From positions 1,488,001 through 1,552,000 of the forward strand of contig NC_015514.1 in assembly GCF_000212695.1 (NCBI RefSeq): 64,000 bases of DNA, in the 5' to 3' direction. The notes below the pieces were generated by a model. The model made no database searches. It was not told the DNA's origin and worked only from the letters and a program-made list of their open reading frames with translations. Positions within the stretch are counted from its first letter, which is position 1. The number at the start of each line of letters is the position of its first letter. Source of the stretch: Cellulomonas fimi ATCC 484 (GTDB taxonomy: Bacteria; Actinomycetota; Actinomycetes; Actinomycetales; Cellulomonadaceae). The translations under genes and the position numbers were made by a program. Shown one piece after another: positions 10,786-25,846 of the stretch.

Positions 10786-10998
10786 TCAGCCTGCGGCGAC
10801 GGTGCCGGAGAAGCTGCCGGACAGCAGGCCGGCGAGCAGCAGGGGGAGCGCTGCGCGCTCCCTATGCGGAGGACGCCTCGTGGCGTCGGCCGCGTGTCTC
10901 GCGGTGAGGATCCGCGCGCGGGCGCGGGCGATCTCGGCGTCCTCGAGGCGACGAGCGCTCTCCTGACGGGCGAGGTCGAAGGTGATGGTCGGGTGCAC
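10786..10998 (-). CDS. Small protein with N-terminal helix and C-terminal hydrophobic segment, function unknown
   Basis: A 70-residue protein beginning at GTG 10998 with AGGAGG a few nt upstream, the best ribosome-binding site in this area. Residues 6-34 (TFDLARQESARRLEDAEIARARARI) form a strongly charged predicted helix. Residues about 50-70 (ALPLLLAGLLSGSFSGTVAAG) are hydrophobic. No characterised family is recognised. The next gene downstream (10653, -) is 130 nt away. Confidence 0.6.
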   Translation of the reverse strand: MHPTITFDLARQESARRLEDAEIARARARILTARHAADATRRPPHRERAALPLLLAGLLSGSFSGTVAAG

Positions 10999-11227
10999 GG
11001 CTGCCTCCTGGGCATGACGACGGGACCGTCGCCGGTGGGTGGGTGGTGGGAATGGCGGAGCCGGGCCCTGGAGGCCCGGGTCGCCGGTGGATCAGGAACA
11101 CCAGACCACGCCCCAGATACGGGTGTCATCCGCTTTTTCCCGGTCTCGTGCGGGCTGGCAGGAGGTCGACGCCGGTCGTCCGGACGGCGGCTCGACCAGG
11201 GCGGGTCCGGCAGGAGAGGGTCGGCGC

Positions 11228-12640
11228 GTGCCTGCTCCCACCACGTCGCCGCGCCCCGACGCGACCGCCGGTCGCGACCCCGCCGACCCCACGCCCCTCG
11301 CCCCGCACGGCGCCGTCGGCGTGCTGCTCGGGTCCGCCTGGTACGTCGCCGCGGTGCTCGGTACCGGGATCCTGCTGCTGCCCGCGCTCGCGGTCGAGGT
11401 CGCCGGGCCGGCGTCGGTCGTGGCCGTCGCGCTCGTCCTGCTCGCGTCGGTGCCGCTCGCCGCCACGTTCGCCGCGCTCGCCACCCGGTACCCCGACGCG
11501 GGCGGTGTCGCGACCTACGTCCGCCGTGCCCTCGGCCCGACGGCGGCCCGCGCGACCGGGTACTGGTTCTTCTTCGGCGTGTGCGTCGGGACGCCCGTCG
11601 TGGCGCTGCTCGGCGCCGAGTACGTCGTCGCGATGGTCGGCGGGGACGGCCCGCTGGTCTACGTCGTCGCCGCCGTCCTGCTCGTGCCGCCGTTCGCCAC
11701 GAACGCCGTCGGGCTGCGGCTCGCCGGGCCCGTGCAGCTCGCGCTCACGGGCGGGCTCGTCGCCATCGTGGTGGTCGTCGCCGCGGCCGCCGCGCCCGCG
11801 GCGCAGACCGCCCACCTGACCCCGTTCCTCCCGCACGGCTGGGCCGGCGTCGGGGCGGCCGTGTCGCTGTACGTGTGGGCGTTCGCCGGGTGGGAGGCCG
11901 TGACGCACGTCGCCGGCGAGTTCCGCGACCCGCGGCGGACCATCCCGCGTGCGACGGCCGCCGCGCTCGTCGTCGTCGGCGCCGCCTACCTCGCGCTGCA
12001 GTGGGTCACGGTGACGGCGCTCGGCCCCGCAGCGGCCTCGTCGACCGTCCCGCTCCTCGACCTCGTCGACCTGCGCCTGCCGTCCGCCGCCCGGGTCGCG
12101 GTCGCGGTCGTCGCGGCGGTCGTCACGCTCGGCGTCCTCAACGCCTACGTCGCGGCGTTCGCGAAGCTCGGTGCGTCGCTCGGGCGGGACGGGGACCTGC
12201 CACGGTGGCTCGAGCCGGGCGGGGAGGCCGGGGGCGTGCCGCGGCGGGCGCTGGTCGTCGTCGGCGCGCTCGCGACCGGGTACCTCGCGCTCGCGGTCGC
12301 CACCGGCGGGGATCTCGGGCCGTTCGTGCTCGTGCACACGAGCTGCATGGTCGCGATCTACGGCACGGGCGTCGTCGCGGCGCTGCGGCTCCTGCGCCGC
12401 GGGACGCCCGGGTGGTGGGCCGCGCTGGCGGCGTGCGTGCTCGTCGTCGGCCTGCTCGTCCTCGCGGGCGCGCACCTGCTGGTCCCCGCCGCCCTGGGCG
12501 GTGTCGCCGTCGTCGTCGGGCTGGTGCGCAGCAGGCTGCGGCGGCTCGGAGCGACCCACCCGCAGGCCCCGGACGGGCCGCCCCGTGCGACCCGCGTGCA
12601 GCGCCCCCGGCAGGACTCGAACCTGCAACCGACGGATTAG
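11228..12640 (+). CDS. APC-superfamily amino acid permease
   Basis: A 470-residue transporter starting at GTG 11228, preceded by AGGAGAGGG at about 11212-11220. About twelve hydrophobic segments begin with the APC signature GSAWYVAAVLGTGILLLPALAVEVAGPAS (residues about 36-64), and WAFAGWEAVTHVAGEFRDPRRTIPRA near residue 220 is the conserved TM6/loop segment of amino acid permeases. The substrate cannot be assigned. The reading frame has no stop before the oppositely oriented tRNA-Arg, so the last 13 residues and the TAG (12638-12640) are read from the antisense of the tRNA. Confidence 0.85.
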   Translation: MPAPTTSPRPDATAGRDPADPTPLAPHGAVGVLLGSAWYVAAVLGTGILLLPALAVEVAGPASVVAVALVLLASVPLAATFAALATRYPDAGGVATYVRRALGPTAARATGYWFFFGVCVGTPVVALLGAEYVVAMVGGDGPLVYVVAAVLLVPPFATNAVGLRLAGPVQLALTGGLVAIVVVVAAAAAPAAQTAHLTPFLPHGWAGVGAAVSLYVWAFAGWEAVTHVAGEFRDPRRTIPRATAAALVVVGAAYLALQWVTVTALGPAAASSTVPLLDLVDLRLPSAARVAVAVVAAVVTLGVLNAYVAAFAKLGASLGRDGDLPRWLEPGGEAGGVPRRALVVVGALATGYLALAVATGGDLGPFVLVHTSCMVAIYGTGVVAALRLLRRGTPGWWAALAACVLVVGLLVLAGAHLLVPAALGGVAVVVGLVRSRLRRLGATHPQAPDGPPRATRVQRPRQDSNLQPTD

Positions 12641-12674
12641 AAGGCCGTTGCTCTATCCGTTGAGCTACGGGGGC
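12602..12674 (-). tRNA. tRNA-Arg (anticodon TCT)
   Basis: A 73-nt tRNA. The acceptor GCCCCCG (12674-12668) pairs with CGGGGGC, the discriminator is G, and the anticodon loop CTTCTAA gives TCT (Arg, AGA codons). The T-arm is GCAGGTTCGAGTCCTGC. CCA is not encoded. Its 3' half overlaps the end of the convergent APC permease by 39 nt. Confidence 0.97.
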
Positions 12675-12823
12675 CGACGCCGGCCAGCCTAGTGTTCCCG
12701 GGCCGGTCCGCGGCTCGCGACGGCGTCGGACGGGGTCCTCGGGACCGGATCGGGGCACGATCCGGTCAGCGTCGACAGCGTGGCGCGTTTGGCCTGGTCA
12801 GATCGCGCCATGACAATGAGGTC

Positions 12824-14593
12824 GTGAGCGCGCAGCCCGGCACCGCCCCCGCGCCGTCGGCGCGCGGTGCGCACGCGGCCTCCGAGCGGCCCGCCCGGCA
12901 CGTCGCGAGCGACCCGCGCGACGTCCTCGCGCGCCCGCTGGCTGCGACGTCGCTGCTCGACGCGGTCAAGGACCTGCACCGCGACGTCGAGCGCACGGGC
13001 TTCCCGCTCGACCTCGAGGGCACCGCCTCGGCCCGCGCCTCGCGCGCCCGCCTCGTCGACCAGCTCGCCGAGCACCTCGTGCCGCGGCTCACCGAGCTGT
13101 CCGCTCCGGCCGTGGTCGTCGTGTCGGGGTCGACCGGCGCCGGCAAGTCGACGCTCGTGAACTCGCTCGTCGGACGCGAGGTCAGCGAGGCGGGCGTGCT
13201 GCGGCCGACGACGCGCCGACCCGTCCTGGTGCACCACCCGCTCGACGACGAGCTGCTGTCGCACCACCCGGTGCTCGAGCTCGTGCAGGTCGTCGCCGAC
13301 GACGCGGTCCCGCGCGGGATCGCGCTGCTCGACGCGCCCGACCTCGACTCGGTCCTCGACTCCAACCGCGAGCAGGCGCACCGGCTCCTCGAGGCGGCGG
13401 ACCTGTGGCTCTTCGTGACGACCGCCGCCCGGTACGGCGACGCGCTGCCGTGGCGCGTCCTGGAGGCGGCGGTCGAGCGCGGCACCTCGATCGCGATGGT
13501 GCTCAACCGCGTGCCGGGGGCGTCGCTGCCGACGGTGCGCGGCGACCTGCTGGAGCGCCTGCGCTCGCACGGGCTCGAGGGCTCGCCGCTGTTCGTCGTC
13601 CCGGACCTCGGCCCGCACGAGGGGCTGCTCGCCGCGGGCATCGTCGCGCCCGTCAAGCGCTGGCTGACGATGCTGGCCGGGCCCGACCGCGCCCGCACGG
13701 TCGTCGGCCGCACGCTGCGCGGGTCGCTCGCGGCCCTGCGGCCGTGGGTCGACGAGCTCGCCGACGCGGTGCAGGCGCAGGCCGACGCCGCCGCGCGCAT
13801 CGCCCGCACGCTCGACGACGCGGTCGACGAGCCGACCCGGCACGCCGTCGCCGCGGTGCGGCAGGGCGCCGTGGCGGACGGGGCGGTCCGGGCGCGCTGG
13901 GCCGAGCTGACGGCGGACGGCTCGCCGCTCGCGTCGGTCGTGCGGGCGTCGGGCCGCGTCGCGGGCTCCGCGCGCGACGGCCGGGCCCGGGCGGCGGCGG
14001 TGCGGCCGCTCGTCGAGGACCTCACGCGCTCGGCGACCGCGGTCCTCGGGGCTGCGGGTGCGCACGCCCAGGAGGCGCTGCGTGCGGCGCTGACCGGTCG
14101 CGGCGCGCCGGCGGGGGGCCCGTCGGTCGACGCCGCGTGGGACGACCAGGCGGACCGGCCCGTGCGGCAGCGCAGCGCCGAGCTCACGGCGCGCGCGTGG
14201 ACGGCGCAGGGGCAGCGCACGCTGCGGGCCGCGCTCGCGGTGCCGCCCCCGACGAGCGACGAGGACGGGCGCCCGCGCCGCTCGCGCGACGTCGCGCACG
14301 AGGGCCGGCGGCGCCAGAAGGCCGAGCGTGCGCTCGGTGAGGACGGGCTGGCGGCGCTCGCGCTCGCCGGGGCCGCGGGCGTCGAGGAGGCGTCCGCCCT
14401 GGCCGAGGACCTGCTCGGTGCCGCGGGGCGCCGCGCGGTCGAGGACCTGCGGGCTGACCTGGAGTCGCGGGTCGAGGCGCAGGTCGCGCTCGAGCGCGCG
14501 TCGGTGGGCAAGGTGCTGGCGGACCCGGACCTCGCCGACGACGCCGCGTCGCTGCTGCGGCTGCGGCTCGCCGTCCTGAAGGGACTGACGTGA
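12824..14593 (+). CDS. Dynamin-like GTPase, pair 1 subunit A
   Basis: A 589-residue P-loop NTPase. The P-loop GSTGAGKST is at residues 102-110 within VVVVSGSTGAGKSTLVNSLVG, switch-region VLRPTTRRPVLVHHP follows, and G3 is LLDAPDLDS near residue 172. The expected G4 NKxD is replaced by LNRVP, so nucleotide specificity may be altered. The C-terminal 300 residues are Ala/Arg-rich and predicted helical, as in dynamin-like stalks, with no clear membrane span. Its stop overlaps the start of the partner GTPase (GTGA). GACAAT ends 6 nt before GTG 12824, suggesting a leaderless start. It is paralogous to the gene at 18855. Confidence 0.75.
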   Translation: MSAQPGTAPAPSARGAHAASERPARHVASDPRDVLARPLAATSLLDAVKDLHRDVERTGFPLDLEGTASARASRARLVDQLAEHLVPRLTELSAPAVVVVSGSTGAGKSTLVNSLVGREVSEAGVLRPTTRRPVLVHHPLDDELLSHHPVLELVQVVADDAVPRGIALLDAPDLDSVLDSNREQAHRLLEAADLWLFVTTAARYGDALPWRVLEAAVERGTSIAMVLNRVPGASLPTVRGDLLERLRSHGLEGSPLFVVPDLGPHEGLLAAGIVAPVKRWLTMLAGPDRARTVVGRTLRGSLAALRPWVDELADAVQAQADAAARIARTLDDAVDEPTRHAVAAVRQGAVADGAVRARWAELTADGSPLASVVRASGRVAGSARDGRARAAAVRPLVEDLTRSATAVLGAAGAHAQEALRAALTGRGAPAGGPSVDAAWDDQADRPVRQRSAELTARAWTAQGQRTLRAALAVPPPTSDEDGRPRRSRDVAHEGRRRQKAERALGEDGLAALALAGAAGVEEASALAEDLLGAAGRRAVEDLRADLESRVEAQVALERASVGKVLADPDLADDAASLLRLRLAVLKGLT

Positions 14594-16104
14594 GCGGGAC
14601 GACGAGCCACCCGGTGCATCGCCACGTGCTCGAGGCGGCGCTGCACGGCGACGAGACGGTGCGCCTCGAGGAGCGCGCGACGGCGCTCGACCAGGCGCTC
14701 GTCGTCGGCGGGTCGCGGCTCGAGCCGCCCGTCGTCGCGCGCGTGGGCGCGGTGATCGACCGTGTGCGCGAGCGGCTCGAGCTCGGCGTCGACCACTCGG
14801 TGGTCGCACTCGTCGGGGGCACCGGCTCGGGCAAGTCCAGCCTGTTCAACGCCGTGTGCGGGCTGCCGCTGGCGGACGTCGGCGTGCGTCGCCCGACGAC
14901 GTCCGACATCACCGCGTGCGTCTGGGCGACGGACGGCGGTGCGCTGCTCGACTGGCTCGGCGTCCGGCCCGACCGCCGCACCGTGCGCGAGAGCCTGCTC
15001 GACGGCGAGGCGGAGGCGCCGCTGCGCGGCATGGTGCTGCTCGACCTGCCCGACCACGACTCGATCGCGCCCGAGCACCGCGAGGTCGTCGACCGGCTGC
15101 TGCCGCAGGCCGACCTCCTCGTGTGGGTCGTCGACCCGCAGAAGTACGCCGACGACGCGCTGCACTCCGGCTACCTGCGCGGGCTCGTCGGGCACGAGGC
15201 GTCGATGGTCGTCGTGCTCAACCAGGTCGACACCGTGCCGCCCGAGGTGCGTCCCGAGCTCGTGGCCGACGTCGGCCGGCTGCTGCAGGAGGACGGCCTG
15301 ACGGGCGTGAGCGTGCTGGAGGCGTCCGCTCGCACGGGCGAGGGCGTGCCGGCGCTGCGTGAGCGCCTGGCCGATGCCGTGAGCGCGCGGTCGCTGGCCG
15401 CGCGACGGGCCGGTGCGGAGCTCAACGACGCCGCGGTGCTGCTGTCGTCGCAGGTCGCGCCGCGCGAGCCCGCGCCCGCCGACCTGGCGCTCGGCGGCGT
15501 CGTGGACACGCTGGCCGACGCGGCCGGGCTGCCGGCGGTGGCCGGAGCGGTCGCGGCGGTCGTCCGCGGCGGTTCGTCGGTGACCCCGTCGTTCGGGCCC
15601 GTGCAGGAGGACTCGGTGGCGCTCGCTCGCGCCGACTGGCTGACGGCGGCGACGGCGGGCCTGCCGCGTGCGTGGCGGCAGGACGTCGCCGAACGGGTCG
15701 CGACGACCGCGGAGCTGCGGCTCGCGGTGACCGACGCGCTCGCGCAGGTGACGGTCGTCGCACGGCGGTCGGTCGCCGCGGCGTGGCTGACCGGGCTCGC
15801 GGTGGTGCTCGTGGCGGCGGCCGTGACGATCGGCTCGGTCGCGCTCGGCTCCGGGTTCGCGAGCGTCCGGGCCAACCCGTGGGCGCCCGCCGGTGCGCTG
15901 CTGCTCCTCGCGGGTGCGGTCGTCGCCCTGCTGGCGTCCGTGTCGACGCGGCGTGCGGCGGCGCACCGGCGGGCGGCGCGCGTGCTGCGCGAGGGGCGTG
16001 CGGCGCTGGAACGCGTCGCGCGGGGGCGGCTCGCCGACCCGACCGTCGTGGCGCTGGGCGAGCACCGGCAGACGCGCGAGCTCGTGGACGCCGCGCGGGC
16101 CTGA
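14590..16104 (+). CDS. Dynamin-like/YfjP-type membrane GTPase, pair 1 subunit B
   Basis: A 504-residue GTPase coupled to subunit A by a 4-bp overlap. The P-loop GGTGSGKSS is at residues 76-84, G3 is LLDLPDHDS near residue 149, and G4 is a good NQVD near residue 206. WVVDPQKYADDALHSGYLR is a conserved block shared with the paralogue at 20999. Two hydrophobic segments near residues 395-445 (WLTGLAVVLVAAAVTIGSVAL and PAGALLLLAGAVVALLASV) anchor it in the membrane, followed by an Arg-rich cytoplasmic tail. The architecture of a soluble and a membrane-anchored GTPase resembles DynA/DynB of Streptomyces (inference). Confidence 0.75.
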   Translation: MSGTTSHPVHRHVLEAALHGDETVRLEERATALDQALVVGGSRLEPPVVARVGAVIDRVRERLELGVDHSVVALVGGTGSGKSSLFNAVCGLPLADVGVRRPTTSDITACVWATDGGALLDWLGVRPDRRTVRESLLDGEAEAPLRGMVLLDLPDHDSIAPEHREVVDRLLPQADLLVWVVDPQKYADDALHSGYLRGLVGHEASMVVVLNQVDTVPPEVRPELVADVGRLLQEDGLTGVSVLEASARTGEGVPALRERLADAVSARSLAARRAGAELNDAAVLLSSQVAPREPAPADLALGGVVDTLADAAGLPAVAGAVAAVVRGGSSVTPSFGPVQEDSVALARADWLTAATAGLPRAWRQDVAERVATTAELRLAVTDALAQVTVVARRSVAAAWLTGLAVVLVAAAVTIGSVALGSGFASVRANPWAPAGALLLLAGAVVALLASVSTRRAAAHRRAARVLREGRAALERVARGRLADPTVVALGEHRQTRELVDAARA

Positions 16105-16280
16105 GGGGTCCGCGAGCGCGGGCGCTCCGTGGTGTCGGCGGGTCGCGAGCCGTCCACAGCACCTGCGCGCGCCGCGTGCGTCCACCGGCCGAGGGCGGCC
16201 CCACCCGCCGGGGGCGGCCGCCCGCCGACGCTGGGTCCACACGCCCCGCACCGAGCGGGGCCGGGGCACAGGAGGCCCGC

Positions 16281-16820
16281 ATGAGCACGCACTCCCTCGA
16301 CCTGACCCTCGTCGGCTGGGTCGGCAGCGACGTCCGGCACTTCAACGCCCCCGGTACGACGCCCTACACGTCGTTCCGCATGGCGAGCACGCGGCGCTGG
16401 TTCGACCGGCGCGAGGGCGCCTGGCGCGACGGCCGGACCGAGTGGTTCACCGTGAAGATCTGGCGGTCCGGCGCGCTCAACGTCGCGCAGTCGCTGCGCA
16501 AGGGCGAGCCCGTCGTCGTGCACGGGCGGCTGTCCACGGAGGAGTGGCAGGCCGACGACGGGGCGCGGACCTCCCTGGTCGTCGAGGCGACGGCGGTCGG
16601 GCACGACCTCACGTTCGGCACGACGCGGTTCGCGCGGACCGTGACGACCGCGGCCGACGGTGCCGGCACGGGCGACGTCGACGGACGCCCGCCCGTCGAC
16701 GTGTCCACGCTTCCGGAGGTCGACGACGCCGACATGGTGCCCGGCGAGCACGTCGTCGACGAGGCCGGCCGGCCCGTGGACGACGTCGACCGGGCGCTCG
16801 CAGCGGCGGGCGCGGCCTGA
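16281..16820 (+). CDS. ssb: Single-stranded DNA-binding protein paralogue
   Basis: A 179-residue OB-fold SSB from ATG 16281 with GGAGG about 5 nt upstream. LTLVGWVGSDVRHF at the N-terminus, FRMASTRRWFDRREGAW, EWFTVKIWRSGALNVAQSLRKGEPVVVHGRLS and the following strand define the OB fold (residues 1-115). The C-terminal 60 residues are acidic but end DRALAAAGAA and lack the DDDIPF-like tip that recruits partner proteins. That suggests an accessory SSB such as Streptomyces SsbB, with the housekeeping ssb elsewhere. It lies between a GTPase pair and ettA. Confidence 0.88.
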   Translation: MSTHSLDLTLVGWVGSDVRHFNAPGTTPYTSFRMASTRRWFDRREGAWRDGRTEWFTVKIWRSGALNVAQSLRKGEPVVVHGRLSTEEWQADDGARTSLVVEATAVGHDLTFGTTRFARTVTTAADGAGTGDVDGRPPVDVSTLPEVDDADMVPGEHVVDEAGRPVDDVDRALAAAGAA

Positions 16821-16846
16821 TCGCCTAGGCTGGGGGACCGCAACCG

Positions 16847-16901
16847 ACGACGCGGCAGGGCCGACGGGCGCGCCCGCGCAGCCTGTCCGGCCCGCCGTCG
16901 T
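16847..16901 (+). promoter_or_regulatory. Structured leader upstream of ettA
   Basis: Arms around ACGACG..GGGCC (16847-16862) and GGCCC..CGTCGT (16889-16902) can pair with small bulges, enclosing the self-complementary GGGCGCGCCC. A TAGGCT box at 16826-16831 would place this hairpin in the 5' untranslated region of ettA. It could instead be the ssb terminator. Confidence 0.4.
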
Positions 16902-16935
16902 CACCCCACGACATCCCGAGGCGGACGAAGAGCCA

Positions 16936-18618
<1,683 letters not shown>

Positions 18619-18666
18619 CCCGGCCGCGGCGACCCAGCCGGTCGCCACGGCACGGCACGGCTCGTC

Positions 18667-18703
18667 CGACGGGCGCGCGAGGGACGACCTCGCGCGCCCG
18701 TCG
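18667..18703 (+). terminator. Hairpin terminator after ettA
   Basis: Perfect 16-bp arms (18667-18682 and 18688-18703) with loop GACGA. It separates ettA from the second GTPase pair. Confidence 0.8.
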
Positions 18704-18854
18704 TGCGTCGTGCACCCGGGCCGGGGCCGCACGCCGATCCACGTGCGGCTGCCGTGGTCGCTCGACGTGCGTGCGTCCGGGGTCGCGCCGGTCCGCGCGC
18801 GCTCCGGGCCGCGTCGAGGCAGGCTAGGGCGGCAACCGACGAGGAGGGGCGCCC

Positions 18855-21002
18855 GTGAGCACGAGCGACGCACCGCGGCTCGTCGACGCGATCGTCGACC
18901 TGCGGCAGGCGCTCGACGCCGTCGCGCTCCCGCTCGCGACCCCGTCCGCCGCACCGGCCGCGCTCGAGCGACGGCGGCTGCTCGACCAGCTCGACGACCA
19001 CCTGCTGCCGCGCCTGCGCGACCCGGACGCGGCGACGCTGGTCGTCGTCGGGGGCTCGACCGGCGCCGGCAAGTCGACCCTGCTCAACTCGCTGCTGGGC
19101 GAGCACGTGAGCACACCGGGCGTGCTGCGGCCGACGACGCGCAGCCCGGTCCTGGTGCACCACCCCGACGACGCCGCCGACGTGGACCCGGCGCGGGTCC
19201 TGCCCGGACTCGCGCGCGTCCGCGAGCACGACATCGGTGCGGCGCCCGGGGGGCCGGGCCAGGACGCGGCACCCGTGGACCTGCGGGACGGCCCCCCGGA
19301 CGAGCGGCCTGGGCAGAAGGACGGGGACGGCGGGATCGCGCCGGACGCCGCAGCGACGCGCCCCGAGCCCGGCAGCACGCGGCACGGCAGGGACGCCGGG
19401 GCGGCGACGCACGGTCGGGTGCTCCGGACCGTCGCCTCACCGAGGATGCCCCGAGGTCTCGCGCTCGTCGACGCACCGGACGTCGACTCGGTCGAGGAGG
19501 CCAACCGCGACCTCGCCGCGCAGCTCCTGCGAGCGGCCGACGCGTGGCTCTTCGTCACGACCGCCGCCCGGTACGCCGACGCGGTGCCGTGGGAGCTGCT
19601 GGCCGAGGCGCAGCGCCGTCGCACGCACCTCGCGCTCGTGCTCGACCGGGTCGACGTCGGCACCGAGCGGGCCGTCGCCGACGACCTGGCCCGCATGCTC
19701 GCCGACCGGGGCCTCGCCGGCACGCCGGTGCTCGTCGTGCGCGAGGTGGCGCTCGAGGACGGGCTGCTGCCGGAGCCGGACGTCGCACCGGTCGCCGACT
19801 GGCTCACGGCGCTGGCCCTCGACCCCGCGGAGCGTGCGCGTGCCGTCGAGGCGACCCGCGACGGCGCGGTGCTCGACGTCACCGTCCGGTCCCAGGACGT
19901 CGCCCGGGCGGCCGACGACCAGCGCGAGGCCGCCGACCGGCTGCGCGCGGCCGTGACCGCGGCGTACGCGGCGGCCCGCACGCGGGTCGCGGAGCAGACG
20001 TCCGACGGGACGATGCTGCGGGGCGAGGTGCTCGCGCGCTGGCAGGACGTCGTCGGCACCGGGGAGTGGTTCCGGCGGCTCGAGGAGGGCGTGTCGAAGG
20101 CGCGCGACCGGATCGTCGAGGCGATGACGGGGCGACGCGCGGCAGACCCGGGCCTCGCGCAGGCCGTCGGGCACGGCGTCACGGCACTCGTCGTCGACGC
20201 CGCCGAGGACGCAGCCGCCCGGGCGCACGCCGACTGGCACCACGACCCCGCCGGGTCGGGGCTGCTGGGCGGGCTCGCCCTCTCGCGGGCGTCGGCGGAC
20301 CTGCGCGTGCGGGCCGAGGAGCAGGTGCGGGCGTGGCAGGGCGACGTGCTCGAGCTCGTGCGCGGCGAGGGGTCGGGGCGGCGCGCGACCGCGCGTGCCC
20401 TGTCGTTCGGCGTCAACGGGCTCGGGGCGGCGCTCATGGTGGCCGTGTTCGCCTCGACGGGAGGGCTGACGGGCGCCGAGGTGGGCATCGTCGGCGGGAC
20501 CGCGCTGCTCGCGCAGCGGCTGCTCGAGGCGGTGTTCGGCGACGAGGCGGTGCGCCGGCTCACCCGCACGGCGCACGAGCGCCTCGACGCCCGTGTCGGC
20601 GCGCTGCTGGACGTCGAGGCCGCTCGCTTCGGGGCGGTGCTCGAGCCGCTCGCCGCGCGCGTGGTCGACGGCGGGGCGCTGCGGTCACGTGCGGCCCTCG
20701 TCGAGTCGGCGGCCCGCGCCGCCGCGACGGCACCTGCAGGCGGGACGGCACCCGGGGGCGCGGCACCCGCGGGCGGCGACGCCGGCGAGGGGGCGAGCGG
20801 CGTCGCCGGCTCGGGACGGCCGCCGCAGGCCCCGCACGACGCGGCCGCCGGGCCGGGGCTGCGAGGGGCGGGGGCGTCCGGCCGGCCCCGCGGGAGCACG
20901 AGCGAGGACGCCGCGCACGGACGGCACGCGGCCGAGGACGCCGGGACGGCGGGCGGCCTGCGCGGCTGGTGGGCGCGTGTGCGCCGGGGCGGTCGCGCGT
21001 GA
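18855..21002 (+). CDS. Dynamin-like GTPase, pair 2 subunit A
   Basis: A 715-residue paralogue of the gene at 12824, starting at GTG 18855 with GAGGAGGGG upstream. The P-loop GSTGAGKST is at residues 67-75 and the switch block VLRPTTRSPVLVHHP is almost identical to pair 1. A Pro/Gly/Asp-rich insert of about 80 residues (nt about 19190-19430) separates it from G3 LVDAPDVDS. G4 is degenerate (LDRVD). Unlike pair 1 it has hydrophobic stretches (GVNGLGAALMVAVFASTGGL and VGIVGGTALLAQ, residues about 515-555). A low-complexity Ala/Gly/Pro tail ends at the partner gene, overlapping it by 4 bp. Confidence 0.72.
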   Translation: MSTSDAPRLVDAIVDLRQALDAVALPLATPSAAPAALERRRLLDQLDDHLLPRLRDPDAATLVVVGGSTGAGKSTLLNSLLGEHVSTPGVLRPTTRSPVLVHHPDDAADVDPARVLPGLARVREHDIGAAPGGPGQDAAPVDLRDGPPDERPGQKDGDGGIAPDAAATRPEPGSTRHGRDAGAATHGRVLRTVASPRMPRGLALVDAPDVDSVEEANRDLAAQLLRAADAWLFVTTAARYADAVPWELLAEAQRRRTHLALVLDRVDVGTERAVADDLARMLADRGLAGTPVLVVREVALEDGLLPEPDVAPVADWLTALALDPAERARAVEATRDGAVLDVTVRSQDVARAADDQREAADRLRAAVTAAYAAARTRVAEQTSDGTMLRGEVLARWQDVVGTGEWFRRLEEGVSKARDRIVEAMTGRRAADPGLAQAVGHGVTALVVDAAEDAAARAHADWHHDPAGSGLLGGLALSRASADLRVRAEEQVRAWQGDVLELVRGEGSGRRATARALSFGVNGLGAALMVAVFASTGGLTGAEVGIVGGTALLAQRLLEAVFGDEAVRRLTRTAHERLDARVGALLDVEAARFGAVLEPLAARVVDGGALRSRAALVESAARAAATAPAGGTAPGGAAPAGGDAGEGASGVAGSGRPPQAPHDAAAGPGLRGAGASGRPRGSTSEDAAHGRHAAEDAGTAGGLRGWWARVRRGGRA

Positions 21003-22783
21003 GCGCCGCAGCACGCGGCGGGCCTGCGGACCGCGTCGCGGCGCTCGCGGACGCGGTGCGGCTCGCCGCCGGACGCGTCGACGCCGGCGTCGAGGCACAG
21101 GCCGCGGACGTCGTCGCGCGGGCCGGGGAGCGGCTGGCGCTGTCGGGCGAGTACACGGTCGTGGCGCTCGCGGGCGCGACGGGGTCGGGGAAGTCGTCGC
21201 TCATGAACGCGCTGGTCGGCGCCGAGGTCGCACGTCCGGGCGTGATGCGCCCGACGACGGGTCGCCCGCTCGCGGTCGTGCTCCCGCCGCCGGCCCCGGC
21301 GTCGCAGGCGGTCGACACGCCGGCACCACGGCGCGGCGTCGAGGCCCCCGCGGGCCGCGACACGTCGGGACCGGGCGACCTCCTGGACTGGCTCGACGTC
21401 TCCGACCGCCACGTCGTCGCGGGGGTGGCCGCTGCCCCCGCCCGCCGCCGCCGGCGGGCTGCCGCTCCGGTCGCGGACGTCGGGGGGCCGCCCGACCTGC
21501 CGACCGGTGCCGTGCTGCTCGACCTGCCCGACCACGACTCGGTCGTGGCCGAGCACCGGGCCGTCGCCGAACGGCTGTACGCGCGAGCCGACCTGCTCGT
21601 CTGGGTCGTCGACCCGCAGAAGTACGCCGACGCGGCGCTGCACGTGCGGTACCTGCGCCCGCTCGCCGGGCACTCCGCGGTGCTCGTCCTCGCGCTCAAC
21701 CAGGTCGACCGGCTCTCGCCCCGCGAGGTGCAGGCCGTCGTGGCCGACGTGCGACGGGTCGCGGCGCAGGACGGCCTGCGGGACGTGCCGGTCCTGCCGG
21801 TGAGCGCCGCGACCGGCGAGGGCGTCGGGGCGCTCCGCGCGCACCTCGCGGAGGCGGCCCGACGCCGCCAGGCGGCGACGGCGCGTGTCCTGGCGGACGT
21901 GCGGGCCGCGGGCGCCGCGCTGCGCGACGCGTGCGGGGCTGCTCCGCCTCCCGGCGCGCCCGAGCGGGGCGTGCCCGCGCTCGTCGACGCGCTCGAGGTG
22001 GCTGCCGGCGTGCCGCTCGTCGTCGACGCGACGCGACGCTCGACCCTGCACCAGGCGCGCGCCGTGACCGGGTGGCCCGTCACGCGGTGGGTGGGACGCC
22101 TGCGCGCCGACCCGTTGCGCCGGCTCGGGCTCGGGCGGCCCGCGGCGCTCGACCGGATGCGCGGCTCGTCGAGGCGTCCCGACGCGCCGTCCGTCACGGC
22201 GGACGAGCAGGCCGCACGGCGCTCGTCCCTGCCGCGCCCGGCGACGACGGCGGGCGCGCTCGTGTCGATCGCGGTGCGCGACTACCTCGACGCCGCGACG
22301 ACGGGGGCACCCGACGCGTGGACCCTCGCGGCCCGGTCGGCGGTCGACCGTGCCGCGCTGCCGGACGCGCTCGACCAGGCCGTGGTCGCCTCGGCTCCCG
22401 CGGGGGAGCGGGACCCGCGCTGGTGGCGAGCCGTCGGCGTCGTGCAGTGGGCGCTGCTGTCGGTGGCCGTGGCCGGCGGGCTGTGGCTCGGCGTCCTGGC
22501 CGCGCTCGCGTACCTGCGGCTGCCCGAGCCGGTGACGCCCACCTGGGGCGAGGTGCCGTGGCCGACGGTGCTCGCGCTCGGCGGGCTCGCGCTCGGCGTC
22601 CTGCTCGCGCTCGTCGCCCGCGTGCTGGCGGGGATCGGCGCGCGGCGCAGGGCTGGTCGGGTCCGGCGGCGGCTGCGCTCCGGGGTGCGTGACGTGGCCG
22701 AGCGGCTGGTGGTACGGCCGGCGACCGAGGAGCTGACCGCGTGGTCCGCGTGCCGCGCCGCCGCCGAACGCGCGGCCGCCTGA
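20999..22783 (+). CDS. Dynamin-like/YfjP-type membrane GTPase, pair 2 subunit B
   Basis: A 594-residue paralogue of the gene at 14590, starting at GTG 20999 (GTGA overlap with subunit A). It has P-loop GATGSGKSS near residues 59-67, VMRPTTGRPLAVVL as switch region, a Pro/Ala-rich insertion, G3 LLDLPDHDS, the shared WVVDPQKYADAALHVRYLR block and G4 NQVD. Two hydrophobic segments near residues 483-545 (VQWALLSVAVAGGLWLGVLAALAY and VLALGGLALGVLLALVARVLA) anchor the protein before an Arg-rich tail. It probably functions with subunit A at the membrane. Confidence 0.75.
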   Translation: MSAAARGGPADRVAALADAVRLAAGRVDAGVEAQAADVVARAGERLALSGEYTVVALAGATGSGKSSLMNALVGAEVARPGVMRPTTGRPLAVVLPPPAPASQAVDTPAPRRGVEAPAGRDTSGPGDLLDWLDVSDRHVVAGVAAAPARRRRRAAAPVADVGGPPDLPTGAVLLDLPDHDSVVAEHRAVAERLYARADLLVWVVDPQKYADAALHVRYLRPLAGHSAVLVLALNQVDRLSPREVQAVVADVRRVAAQDGLRDVPVLPVSAATGEGVGALRAHLAEAARRRQAATARVLADVRAAGAALRDACGAAPPPGAPERGVPALVDALEVAAGVPLVVDATRRSTLHQARAVTGWPVTRWVGRLRADPLRRLGLGRPAALDRMRGSSRRPDAPSVTADEQAARRSSLPRPATTAGALVSIAVRDYLDAATTGAPDAWTLAARSAVDRAALPDALDQAVVASAPAGERDPRWWRAVGVVQWALLSVAVAGGLWLGVLAALAYLRLPEPVTPTWGEVPWPTVLALGGLALGVLLALVARVLAGIGARRRAGRVRRRLRSGVRDVAERLVVRPATEELTAWSACRAAAERAAA

Positions 22784-22834: not shown

Positions 22835-23335
22835 GTGGCTCGGCTCGAGGTCCCCGTGCAGCTGCGCTGGTCCGACATGGACGCGTACGCGCACGTCAAC
22901 AACGTGGAGATGCTGCGCCTCCTGGAGGAGGCCCGGATCGAGGCGTTCTGGCGTCACCCCCAGGCGCAGGACGGCACGCGCCCCGACGGCACCTGGCCGA
23001 CGGCGGTCCTCGACGCAGGCCCCGGGGCGCAGACGTCGACGCTCGTCGCCCGGCAGGAGATCGAGTACCTCGTGCCGCTCGGGTACCGGCGCTCGCCCGT
23101 CGTCGTCGAGATGTGGCTGGGTCACCTGGGCGGTGCCAGCCTCGACGTCTGCTACGAGGTGCGGGACCGGCCCGCGGCCGACGAGGGCAGCGTGGTGTTC
23201 GCGCGGGCCACGACCACGCTCGTCCTGGTCGACACGACGACGGGCCGCCCCCGACGGCTCGGCGACGCCGAGCGTGCGGTGTGGTCGGGGTACCTCGAGG
23301 AGCCGGTCAGGCACCGCCGGCGGCACGACGCCTGA
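22835..23335 (+). CDS. Acyl-CoA thioesterase, 4-hydroxybenzoyl-CoA thioesterase (hot-dog) family
   Basis: A 166-residue single hot-dog protein starting at GTG 22835 with AAGGAGG at about 22824-22830. The active-site motif DMDAYAHVNNVEMLRLLEEAR (residues about 14-34) has the conserved Asp and the HVNN core of YbgC/FcbC-like thioesterases. EIEYLVPLGYRRSPVVVEMW matches the second conserved strand. It hydrolyses acyl-CoA esters; the chain length is unknown. Its last 29 bp overlap the 3' end of the convergent glycosyltransferase gene. Confidence 0.88.
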   Translation: MARLEVPVQLRWSDMDAYAHVNNVEMLRLLEEARIEAFWRHPQAQDGTRPDGTWPTAVLDAGPGAQTSTLVARQEIEYLVPLGYRRSPVVVEMWLGHLGGASLDVCYEVRDRPAADEGSVVFARATTTLVLVDTTTGRPRRLGDAERAVWSGYLEEPVRHRRRHDA

Positions 23336-24191
23336 GCCTGCGGGGCGTCGCGCTCCAGCGGCGCAGGTGCCGGCGCCCGGGGGAGCCGTCAGGACGGTGC
23401 ACCGCGATCGTCCGCAGCGCGCGGCGCACGCGCTCGACCAGCCCGCCCGCGTCGCGCAGCGGCCGGTCGGAGATGCCGACGACGAGCGTCGGGTCGTACC
23501 GGATCCGGCCCACGTCGCCCACGTGGTAGCTGAGGTCGACGTCGTCGTGCAGGTCCTGGCGGTGCCGGTGGACTCCCGGGCCCACGTGCTCCCACACGGT
23601 CCGGCGCATCGCGAGGTTGGACCCGAACAGCGGTGGGTGGGCGAGCGCGGCGCCCATGAGCAGCCGGTACGCCCGCATGTAGAGGACGTCGCCGAGCGCG
23701 CGCACGACACGGCCGGCGCCGTCGAACCGGCCGGGACCGCTCAGGGCGGCGAGGTCGGGGTCGGCGGCGAAGGCGACCGCCAGGCGCTCGACCCAGTCCG
23801 GCGGGGGCACGCTGTCGGCGTCGCAGCGGGCCACGACCTGCGCCGTGACGGCGTCGTACCCGGTCGCGGCGGCGGCCCAGATGCCGGTGGTGGCCTGGTG
23901 CAGGCACGTGGCGCCGTGACGTCGCGCGACCGCGGCGGTCGCGTCCCGGCTCGCGTTGTCGACGACCACGACCTCGGCGGGCGGCACCGTCTGCGCGGCG
24001 AGCGCCGTGAGGCAGCGGTCGAGCAGGACCGCGTCGTCGCGCGAGGGCACGACGACGGCGACGCTCGGCAGGACGAGCGGCGCCGGCGACGCGTCACCAC
24101 GGGCCGGACGCGCGCCCGGCCGCGGCCGCCGGGTCTGCGGGCGCGTGCGGTCGCTGCCTCCGAGGCCACGGGTGAGCGCCGGCCCCGTCAC
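23307..24191 (-). CDS. Family 2 glycosyltransferase
   Basis: A 294-residue GT-A glycosyltransferase beginning at GTG 24191, which overlaps the stop of the upstream SDR gene by 4 bp. VAVVVPSRDDAVLLDRCLTAL is the nucleotide-binding strand, VVVDNASRDAT follows, and CDADSVPPPDW carries the DxD-like metal-binding motif. HDDVDLSYHVGDVGRIRYDP holds the acidic catalytic region. There are no membrane spans, so it is cytosolic or peripheral. The first 50 residues are Arg/Pro-rich and poorly conserved-looking. Donor and acceptor are unknown. Confidence 0.82.
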   Translation of the reverse strand: MTGPALTRGLGGSDRTRPQTRRPRPGARPARGDASPAPLVLPSVAVVVPSRDDAVLLDRCLTALAAQTVPPAEVVVVDNASRDATAAVARRHGATCLHQATTGIWAAAATGYDAVTAQVVARCDADSVPPPDWVERLAVAFAADPDLAALSGPGRFDGAGRVVRALGDVLYMRAYRLLMGAALAHPPLFGSNLAMRRTVWEHVGPGVHRHRQDLHDDVDLSYHVGDVGRIRYDPTLVVGISDRPLRDAGGLVERVRRALRTIAVHRPDGSPGRRHLRRWSATPRRLRRRAAGGA

Positions 24192-25846
24192 GCGTCCCTC
24201 CGGTCGGTGCGGGCGCGCTCGGCGCTCTCCGCGGCACGCGCGAGGTTGCGCTGCATGCCGCCGAAGACGACGCCGTGGAAGGGCGCGACGGACCACCAGT
24301 AGACGTGCCCGAGCAGGCCGCGCGGGTGGAACAGCGCGCGCTGCGCGAACACTGCCGGGGGGTGCAGGCGGCGCGAGGTGTCCGCGGCCTCGTCGGGCCC
24401 GTCATCGGTCTCCACGCGCAGCTCGAGCCACGCGAGCCCGGGGACGCGCATCTCCGCGCGCAGGCGCAGCAGACGTCCCGGGTCGACCTCCTCCACCCGC
24501 CAGAAGTCGACGGCGTCGTCCACGAGCAGCCGCTGCGGGTCACGCCTGCCGCGCCGCAGCCCCGGCCCGCCGACGAGCCGGTCGCCCAGGCCCCGCAGAC
24601 GCCACGCGAGCGGCCAGGAGTACCACCCGTGCTCGCCGCCCACGGCCTCCACGACGCGCCACAGCGACGCGGGCGACGCGTCGACCGGCATCCGGCGCTC
24701 GTCGACGTACAGGGACCCGCCCGCCCAGTCGGGGTCGGACGGCAGGGGGTCGCTCGGGGCACCGGGGGCGGCCGCGGACGACCACCGCGTGGTGACGGCG
24801 GCGTCGTGCACGCGGCGCAGCGCGAGGAGCACCGCGCGGTCGAAGCCCACGAGCCCCTCGGGCGGGTCCGGCACCCAGCGCGCGATGTCGTGCTCGTCGC
24901 ACACGACCTCGTGCACGAGCGACTCGACGAGCGGGCGCGCGAGGCCGCCGGGCACGGGTGTCACGAGCGAGACCCACAGGCTCGACAGGCGCGGGGTGAG
25001 GACCCCGACGCCCACGACGACGCGGCGGCGCAGTCCCGCGGCCGCGGCGTACCGCTGCATCATGTCGCGGTACGTCAGCACGTCGGGCCCGCCGATGTCG
25101 AAGCCGCGGCTCACGTCGGGCGGCATGGCCGCGGCGCCGACGAGGTAGCGCAGGACGTCGCGGATCGCGATCGGCTGGATGCGGTTGTCGACCCACCGCG
25201 GGACCGTCATCGCGGGCAGCCGCTCGGTGAGGTAGCGCATCATCTCGAACGACGCCGAGCCGGACCCGAGGATCACGGCCGCCCGCAGGACGGTCGTCGG
25301 CACGCCGGACGCGAGCAGGATCTCCCCGACCTCGGTGCGCGACGCGAGGTGCGGCGACAGCTCCTCGCCCTGCGGGTACAGCCCGCCCAGGTAGACGACC
25401 CGCCGCACGCCGGCCTCGCGCGCGGCCTGCGCGAACGTCAGGGCCGTGCGCCGGTCACGTGCCTCGAACGTGCGACCCGAACCGAGCGAGTGGATGAGGT
25501 AGTACGCGACGTCGACACCCTGCAGCGCGGCCCGGATCTGCTCCAGGTCCGACGCGTCCGCCTCGACGGCCTCGACGTCCCGCGTCCAGGGGCGCCCGCG
25601 CAGCCGCTTCGGCGAGCGCGCGAGGGCGCGCACCCGGTAGCCGGCCGCGAGCAGCTCGGGCACGAGCCGGCCTCCGACGTACCCCGTGACGCCCGTGACG
25701 GCCGCGAGCGGCGCGTCGGCGCGGGGTCGACCGTCGGGTCCGACACCGGGGACCAGGCCCGGCAGCGTGTGCGCGACGGGTTCCGGGGCGAGGTCGGCCT
25801 CGGCGGCGCCGGGTGCCGCGGGGGAGTGCACGGGGTCGTCGCTCAT
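24188..25846 (-). CDS. SDR-type NAD(P)-binding protein fused to a DUF2867 domain
   Basis: A 552-residue two-part protein. The N-terminal atypical SDR (residues about 45-330) has AAVTGVTGYVGGRLVPELLAAG with the TGxxGYxG nucleotide motif, then VRALARSPKRLRGRPW and VDVAYYLIHSLGSG. The C-terminal part (residues about 380-540) contains SLYVDERRMPVDASPASLWRVVEAVGGEHGWYSW and FWRVEEVDPGRLLRLRAEMRVPG, matching the DUF2867 lipid-binding-like fold. This fusion is common in actinobacteria and cyanobacteria but its substrate is unknown. It is coupled to the GT2 gene downstream, suggesting a shared lipid- or sugar-modification role. Confidence 0.8.
   Translation of the reverse strand: MSDDPVHSPAAPGAAEADLAPEPVAHTLPGLVPGVGPDGRPRADAPLAAVTGVTGYVGGRLVPELLAAGYRVRALARSPKRLRGRPWTRDVEAVEADASDLEQIRAALQGVDVAYYLIHSLGSGRTFEARDRRTALTFAQAAREAGVRRVVYLGGLYPQGEELSPHLASRTEVGEILLASGVPTTVLRAAVILGSGSASFEMMRYLTERLPAMTVPRWVDNRIQPIAIRDVLRYLVGAAAMPPDVSRGFDIGGPDVLTYRDMMQRYAAAAGLRRRVVVGVGVLTPRLSSLWVSLVTPVPGGLARPLVESLVHEVVCDEHDIARWVPDPPEGLVGFDRAVLLALRRVHDAAVTTRWSSAAAPGAPSDPLPSDPDWAGGSLYVDERRMPVDASPASLWRVVEAVGGEHGWYSWPLAWRLRGLGDRLVGGPGLRRGRRDPQRLLVDDAVDFWRVEEVDPGRLLRLRAEMRVPGLAWLELRVETDDGPDEAADTSRRLHPPAVFAQRALFHPRGLLGHVYWWSVAPFHGVVFGGMQRNLARAAESAERARTDRRDA

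Follow-up and report, generated by a model that had tools for sequence, protein, structure and literature searches.

Two diverged pairs of dynamin-like GTPase genes around ssb and ettA in Cellulomonas fimi, and a paddle-like tip hairpin in the second

The dynamin-like GTPases DynA and DynB of Streptomyces are reportedly factors of sporulation septation. As described in part of PMC8748795, DynB spans the membrane twice and acts through DynA, SepF2 and SsgB to stabilise Z-rings, and an excerpt of PMC6428758 lists the two S. venezuelae genes, vnz_12110 and vnz_12105, as one target. A section of PMC6104087 states that most bacterial dynamin-like genes are paired. Here we describe a window of 64,000 nucleotides, i.e. 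the whole stretch of DNA that was analysed, from Cellulomonas fimi ATCC 484 (contig NC_015514.1, positions 1,488,001 to 1,552,000), in which two A–B pairs of such genes, pair 1 (A1 and B1) and pair 2 (A2 and B2), are separated by ssb, encoding a single-stranded DNA-binding protein (SSB), and ettA. From the genus we take the window's order to be Micrococcales. We consider it fairly probable that the locus encodes a membrane-bound system of the DynAB type that supports division, together with a paralogous pair that bears a paddle.

Two GTPase pairs around ssb and ettA

The layout proposed by the initial annotation was borne out. Pair 1, consisting of A1 (window 12824-14593, 589 amino acids (aa)) and B1 (14590-16104, 504 aa), is followed by ssb (16281-16820, 179 aa; PF00436, 1.3e-19), by ettA for an ABC-F translational throttle (16936-18618, 560 aa; NCBIfam EttA equivalog NF008775, 928.8 bits) and by pair 2, consisting of A2 (18855-21002, 715 aa) and B2 (20999-22783, 594 aa), all on the forward strand, and both A/B junctions are GTGA stop/start overlaps in the sequence (14590-14593 and 20999-21002). 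We refer to the position of pair 1 at ssb and ettA as the slot. The blocks VLRPTTR-PVLVHHP in the A proteins and WVVDPQKYAD-AL in the B proteins, which had been named as shared, were found as well. A1 and A2 are 56% identical over 101 aa and 39% over 236 aa, and B1 and B2 43% over 342 aa, while matches of A against B reach 31-34% over 98-239 aa, and higher values over shorter stretches; A1/A2 and B1/B2 thus align as clear paralogues. One protein each from C. biazotea and C. algicola shares 89% and 87% identity with B1, respectively. A search of the window's own 4.27 Mb single-contig genome with B2 found no third pair. Dynamin_N matches do occur elsewhere in this genome, three of which exceed the cut-off only together with their neighbours in frame. 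Judged from the reading frames, the 4-base A/B junction is common in the pair family: 89 of the 111 other pairs with coordinates have an in-frame start that B could use at such an overlap with an open frame, and 22, six of them from Streptomyces, do not (three further pairs had no coordinates).

The assignment to dynamin-like proteins held too. All four GTPases pass the Pfam Dynamin_N cut-off (A1, 3.6e-9; B1, 2.8e-7, along with MMR_HSR1 at 5.5e-8; A2, 2.4e-11; B2, 1.7e-7), so the pairs do not fall into unrelated GTPase families. Structures were modelled as single chains for A2 and B1, with a predicted local distance difference test score (pLDDT) of 79.7 and 90.8, respectively. Both models have a helical-bundle stalk beside the G domain, and their best Foldseek matches are IniA, BDLP, the C. 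jejuni dynamin-like protein (DLP) pair and mitofusins, with IniA at the top for A2 (6.4e-8, followed by BDLP at 2.8e-7) and for B1 (7.3e-9). Residues 126-183 of A2 (window 19230-19403) form a low-confidence insert rich in Gly, Pro and Asp inside the G domain, and its C-terminal tail, residues 640-715, is also modelled with low confidence. Sequence searches of solved structures with A1, B1 and the A and B profiles returned short P-loop or G-domain stretches only, and NCBIfam gave no name above cut-off for any of the four, while public annotation already calls many relatives 'dynamin family protein' or 'GTPase'. Among 112 pairs, the P-loop GxxGxGK is present in all A and at least 110 B proteins. 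The G3 region is DxxDxDS in 112/112 A and 112/112 B proteins, more exactly DxPDxDS in all B and 110 A proteins, compared to DxPG in classical dynamins. G4 is N[Q/H]xD in 112/112 B proteins; in the A proteins arginine replaces lysine in 112/112 and the closing aspartate is kept in 18 only, which makes GTP binding and hydrolysis by A uncertain.

The slot SSB lacks the acidic tip, as had been noted. The genome search found two SSBs, and the other, canonical one ends in SDEPPF. The gene occupies the position of Streptomyces SsbB, and the slot SSB of Streptomyces locus L123 fits chain 4dam ('Single-stranded DNA-binding protein 1') at 5.5e-58 versus 3eiv at 4.2e-18. We take 4dam to be S. coelicolor SsbB. 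According to part of PMC5945547, S. coelicolor SsbB is likewise without an acidic tail.

Gene order was read by tblastn on stretches fetched around the pairs. The order A-B-ssb-ettA, often with a thioesterase gene behind it, occurs in Cellulomonas, in other families of its order and in other families of the class; in the window, a 4HBT-type thioesterase gene (22835-23335, forward strand; PF13279, 6.8e-14) corresponds by synteny to the slot end of many relatives. Pair 2 has ettA before it and the thioesterase gene after it, instead of a following SSB. For Streptomyces (family f37), we examined the best 80 of 218 relatives of the B protein of L040, all from Streptomyces and 82-96% identical. A lies upstream in 74/80 and an SSB downstream in 78/80, the other two stretches ending just past B; ettA follows within the stretch in 52/80, at 1.8-6.7 kb from ssb, and the thioesterase gene comes after ettA in 49. 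In L123, the sole EttA-like match is upstream on the other strand. In Cellulomonas locus L022 (G072, 10812-13378), about 2.6 kb separate ssb and ettA, where the family norm is about 0.1-0.2 kb. In 13/112 cases, the pair is the only one found in its genome and has neither ssb nor ettA in the stretch fetched; the ssb/ettA link therefore appears from these loci to be widespread but dispensable.

These observations bear on a working link, in which the GTPases would cooperate with the SSB in segregating the chromosomes as the septum closes, or with EttA in translation at the membrane. The A-B-ssb order in many families and the tailless slot SSB argue for it, as does a title cited in PMC5945547, which ties S. 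coelicolor SsbB to the segregation of chromosomes during sporulation. The pairs that stand alone argue against it, together with the distance between ssb and ettA in the 52 Streptomyces loci and four loci (L170, L173, L174 and L199) in which the search showed B and EttA without an SSB between them. We regard such a link as rather unlikely, although it would be compatible with the other readings rather than exclusive of them.

Separate histories of the two pairs

Trees of the A and of the B proteins (49 rows each) gave the same two clades, one holding pair 1 and the other pair 2. In a more careful tree of 69 concatenated pairs with bootstrap, pair 1 groups with other slot-linked pairs in a clade of 20 that draws on families f1, f13, f3 and f9, all of the window's order (100/100), and pair 2 falls within eight pairs that lie after ettA, seven from f1 and one from f13 (100/100). 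The sister group of the latter clade consists of free-standing pairs, again from this order (92/91). Nearness and shared blocks could suggest that pair 2 arose as a recent tandem copy, with pair 1 as its source, within Cellulomonas; however, forcing the f1 pairs 1 and 2 together lowered the log-likelihood (lnL) by 336 (approximately unbiased (AU) test, p 2.5e-75), which rejects the copy under the model used, and both pair types lie far apart in f13 and f3 genomes. We consider such a copy extremely improbable, and the idea of a locally duplicated set in the initial annotation fails on the same separate clades and test. In eight f13/f3 loci (L160, L032, L146, L148, L142, L144, L140 and L162), the off-slot second pairs have homologous flanks, and Pfam scans of four of these showed hisS, a DEAD-box (DbpA-like) helicase gene and a DUF349 gene.

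The slot-linked pairs do not form a single group. Forcing all of them into one clade lowered the lnL by 160 (AU p 6.6e-70), and a single ancient split between slot-linked and free-standing pairs is thereby rejected, so that the chromosomal position of the pairs and their sequence history differ. Streptomyces sits with the slot pairs of family f35 with weak support (57/92), and the deep split with the best support separates it from pair 1. As a result, the likeness to Streptomyces DynA/DynB-SsbB stands for gene order and for the fit of the Streptomyces slot SSB to 4dam, but does not extend to one clade of slot pairs, and 'DynAB orthologue' would hold in position only: pair 1 is the positional counterpart of DynAB and only a possible orthologue by sequence. 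Taken together, the clades and constraint tests indicate that the slot is old, while its occupant is not always of the same lineage.

The long-branched L159 was excluded from the careful tree and from the tree of 112 rows used below, and L193, whose A reads 308 aa, from the 112 rows. L060 and L115 were dropped as surplus Streptomyces loci, L039 stayed unpaired as its B was too distant by the start taken, and L158 and L198 were unused; A1 of L024, B1 of L019 and B of L050 were extracted by mid-frame.

Membrane spans and the tip hairpin

Hydropathy of B1 and B2 and the B1 model agree with the two membrane spans that the B subunits were said to carry. The transmembrane helices of B1 lie at about residues 395-455 (model helices 395-423 and 432-503), and the hydrophobic spans of B2 at 481-508 and 519-549. 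By hydropathy, the B proteins of the slot-linked pairs L150, L036, L151 (family f9), L031 and L159 have no transmembrane span, so that the whole pair may be soluble there. A soluble subunit beside a membrane subunit, as first proposed, describes pair 1 but not pair 2, since residues 513-566 of A2 (window 20391-20552, forward strand) form a hydrophobic tip hairpin and A2 is probably no plain soluble subunit. In the model, helices 509-518, 520-533 and 543-561 sit between the stalk helices 483-506 and 563-601, with a pLDDT of 64-92 by block. This modelled position is that of the BDLP paddle, which part of PMC6715688 describes as a hairpin of helices lying between trunk helices three and four. A paddle or transmembrane tip is therefore found in B1 and B2, as two spans, and in A2, as a hairpin. 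A1 is without it: its hairpin is shortened and scores -2.6 bits with a hidden Markov model (HMM) trained on 28 hairpins, compared to 92.4 bits for A2, which is itself in the training set.

In the alignment, the 54-residue block is kept in 8/8 pair-2 A and 20/21 free-standing A proteins and shortened in 20/20 A proteins of the pair-1 clade. A prediction fixed beforehand, namely that slot-linked A proteins lack the hairpin and other A proteins have it, agreed with 7/7 held-out two-pair genomes (-3.0 to 1.6 bits for the slot-linked and 80.8 to 99.4 bits for the second A); as the families of these seven were already in the training set, this is a test of genomes, not of lineages. We drew the line at 40 bits, chosen after the scores were seen, with no score between 26.3 and 41.1. 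Across the two-pair genomes, the hairpin is lost or degraded in 26/26 slot-linked A proteins and intact in 26/26 second A proteins, the 'lost' case of G045 being a degraded hairpin at 26.3 bits. This contrast is a new observation, and among the titles and openings of abstracts listed by literature searches, in which few subscription papers were covered, none concerned a second pair or hairpin loss.

Single slot-linked pairs are mixed, with the hairpin intact in 25 (the 'intact' L183 being marginal at 41.1 bits, and L052, directly followed by ettA, being counted as slot-linked) and lost in 22. It is intact in 13/13 free-standing-only pairs, and over half of the relatives with a single pair have it. 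'Single pair' here means that 13-16 candidates per genome were scored in the larger sets, and it was assumed for the Streptomyces loci L105, L123 and L131. None of 74 Streptomyces A proteins lies above the 40-bit line, the best scoring -1.0 and one having no reported score. In Streptomyces genome G107, only the slot A among the Dynamin_N matches clears the cut-off unaided, and one weaker match needs its neighbours to pass; in another, G144 (C1:6512468-6516813), three further strong Dynamin_N genes stand in a row far from the slot. The tree of 112 rows, for which the hairpin columns were removed, requires at least seven changes of the hairpin, six of them forced by starred branches. The presence of a second pair was considered as the cause of hairpin loss and rejected: it fits 26/26 genomes, yet the independent-pairs test, which corrects for kinship on the tree, was not significant (six pairs, with on average 1.4 concordant, 0 discordant and 4.6 without difference; median p 1, range 0.25-1).

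Proposed roles and known systems

The locus could be the form that the actinobacterial DynA/DynB-SsbB neighbourhood takes in Cellulomonas, where an anciently diverged second pair follows ettA. Each B would be anchored in the plasma membrane through a pair of transmembrane helices at its helical stalk's tip, each A would be the co-translated partner of its B, and an A–B heteromer is expected. Both subunits are expected to bind GTP, B with a G4 motif and A with a degenerate one. The two pairs would support the septal membrane and divisome in ordinary vegetative division. A1, with its shortened hairpin, would reach the membrane mainly via B1, as Streptomyces A may via DynB, whereas A2 could itself insert into the membrane through the hairpin that it keeps, which would make pair 2 the more probable of the two to remodel membrane actively. 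Linkage to ssb and ettA would be an old, loosely kept neighbourhood. The Streptomyces slot pair is presumed here to be DynAB, and its B fits the two transmembrane segments of DynB.

Several results weigh against this proposal. Apart from the failure of the slot-linked pairs to form one clade, the place of Streptomyces beyond the deep split, the 22 slot-linked pairs that lost the hairpin without a second pair and the non-significant kinship-corrected test, the Foldseek matches to IniA and BDLP have low template modelling scores (TM-scores, 0.20-0.36) and a root-mean-square deviation of 34-43 Å, and in VIA-align Era and other plain G domains rank level with mitofusin for B1. The window SSB is barely nearer to 4dam (71.8 bits) than to other actinobacterial SSBs in the PDB (69.2-64.5 bits for the next six; 3eiv, 64.5 bits). 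A B2 match is not universal, being found in 62/79 genomes of the order (E 1e-6) and 41/98 of the class (E 1e-15). Finally, the Streptomyces A proteins of L038, L105, L123 and L131 are hydrophobic in a further region, around residues 362-395, so Streptomyces A may touch the membrane without the hairpin.

The pairs might instead be general membrane-stress or repair proteins that protect or reseal the plasma membrane and are no parts of the divisome in Cellulomonas, a role that has been suggested for IniA and B. subtilis DynA. Cellulomonas is not known to sporulate, and pairs exist without ssb or ettA, which would suit such a role. It would also suit the top match of both models, IniA, a drug-induced protein that cuts membrane (part of PMC6715688), and a section of PMC6104087 speculates that the C. 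jejuni pair, like B. subtilis DynA, serves in repair. On the other hand, the Streptomyces pair taken to occupy the slot acts in division (part of PMC8748795), and the flanking genes scanned, i.e. those for an amino-acid permease, the thioesterase, a glycosyltransferase and an epimerase/DUF2867 protein, give no pointer to stress. We hold a repair role to be unlikely, if still worth weighing. The epimerase/DUF2867 gene (window 24188-25846, reverse strand) joins a NAD-binding epimerase-like domain and DUF2867 in one frame and is 74-83% identical in six relatives where aligned. At the locus, no promoter-like site was predicted, one terminator-like site was found inside ettA on the other strand, and the Rfam scan returned tRNA only.

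Returning to a division-supporting system, we raise the further idea, less likely than not, that doubled actinobacterial pairs divide labour, the slot pair serving as a paddle-less, B-tethered divisome scaffold and the other as a paddle-bearing remodeller, that mixed A1/A2-B1/B2 assemblies could form in Cellulomonas, and that sporulation DynAB would be a specialised branch of a vegetative septal system. The paddle-less state of the slot A is also seen in Streptomyces, whose A proteins are the hairpin-less form, and this bears on their route to the membrane. As the same slot is found in many families and in a host that is not known to sporulate, the sporulation use may have arisen out of an ordinary one. 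A cell with both pairs also offers a natural comparison of a paddle-bearing with a paddle-less dynamin partner.

Compared with the described systems, the locus is closest in arrangement to Streptomyces DynA/DynB-SsbB, with which it shares adjoining A and B GTPases, two transmembrane segments in B, an SSB next to them, ettA and the thioesterase gene downstream in many loci, and the same G3 signature. It differs in having two pairs instead of one, in the overlap of A and B, whose aligned ends lie 154-1265 bases apart in 74 Streptomyces loci, and in the tip hairpin that A2 keeps and 0/74 Streptomyces A proteins have. An A without and a B with transmembrane segments, as in DynAB, is thus matched fully by pair 1 and in part by pair 2. 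With Mycobacterium IniA and Nostoc BDLP, the proteins share a G domain and helical-bundle stalk, with the hairpin placed like the BDLP paddle; they differ in identity (12-18% over the Foldseek alignments), in the DxxDxDS G3 and the Arg for Lys in the G4 of A, and presumably in working as an A–B pair with a transmembrane B. Campylobacter Cj-DLP1/2 are likewise encoded side by side, and they form a heteromer, as is expected of A and B here. In the part of PMC6104087 concerned they bind lipid by the trunk tip, are cytosolic and have a beta-lactamase-like gene in their operon, whereas the Cellulomonas pairs have a transmembrane B and the ssb/ettA slot.

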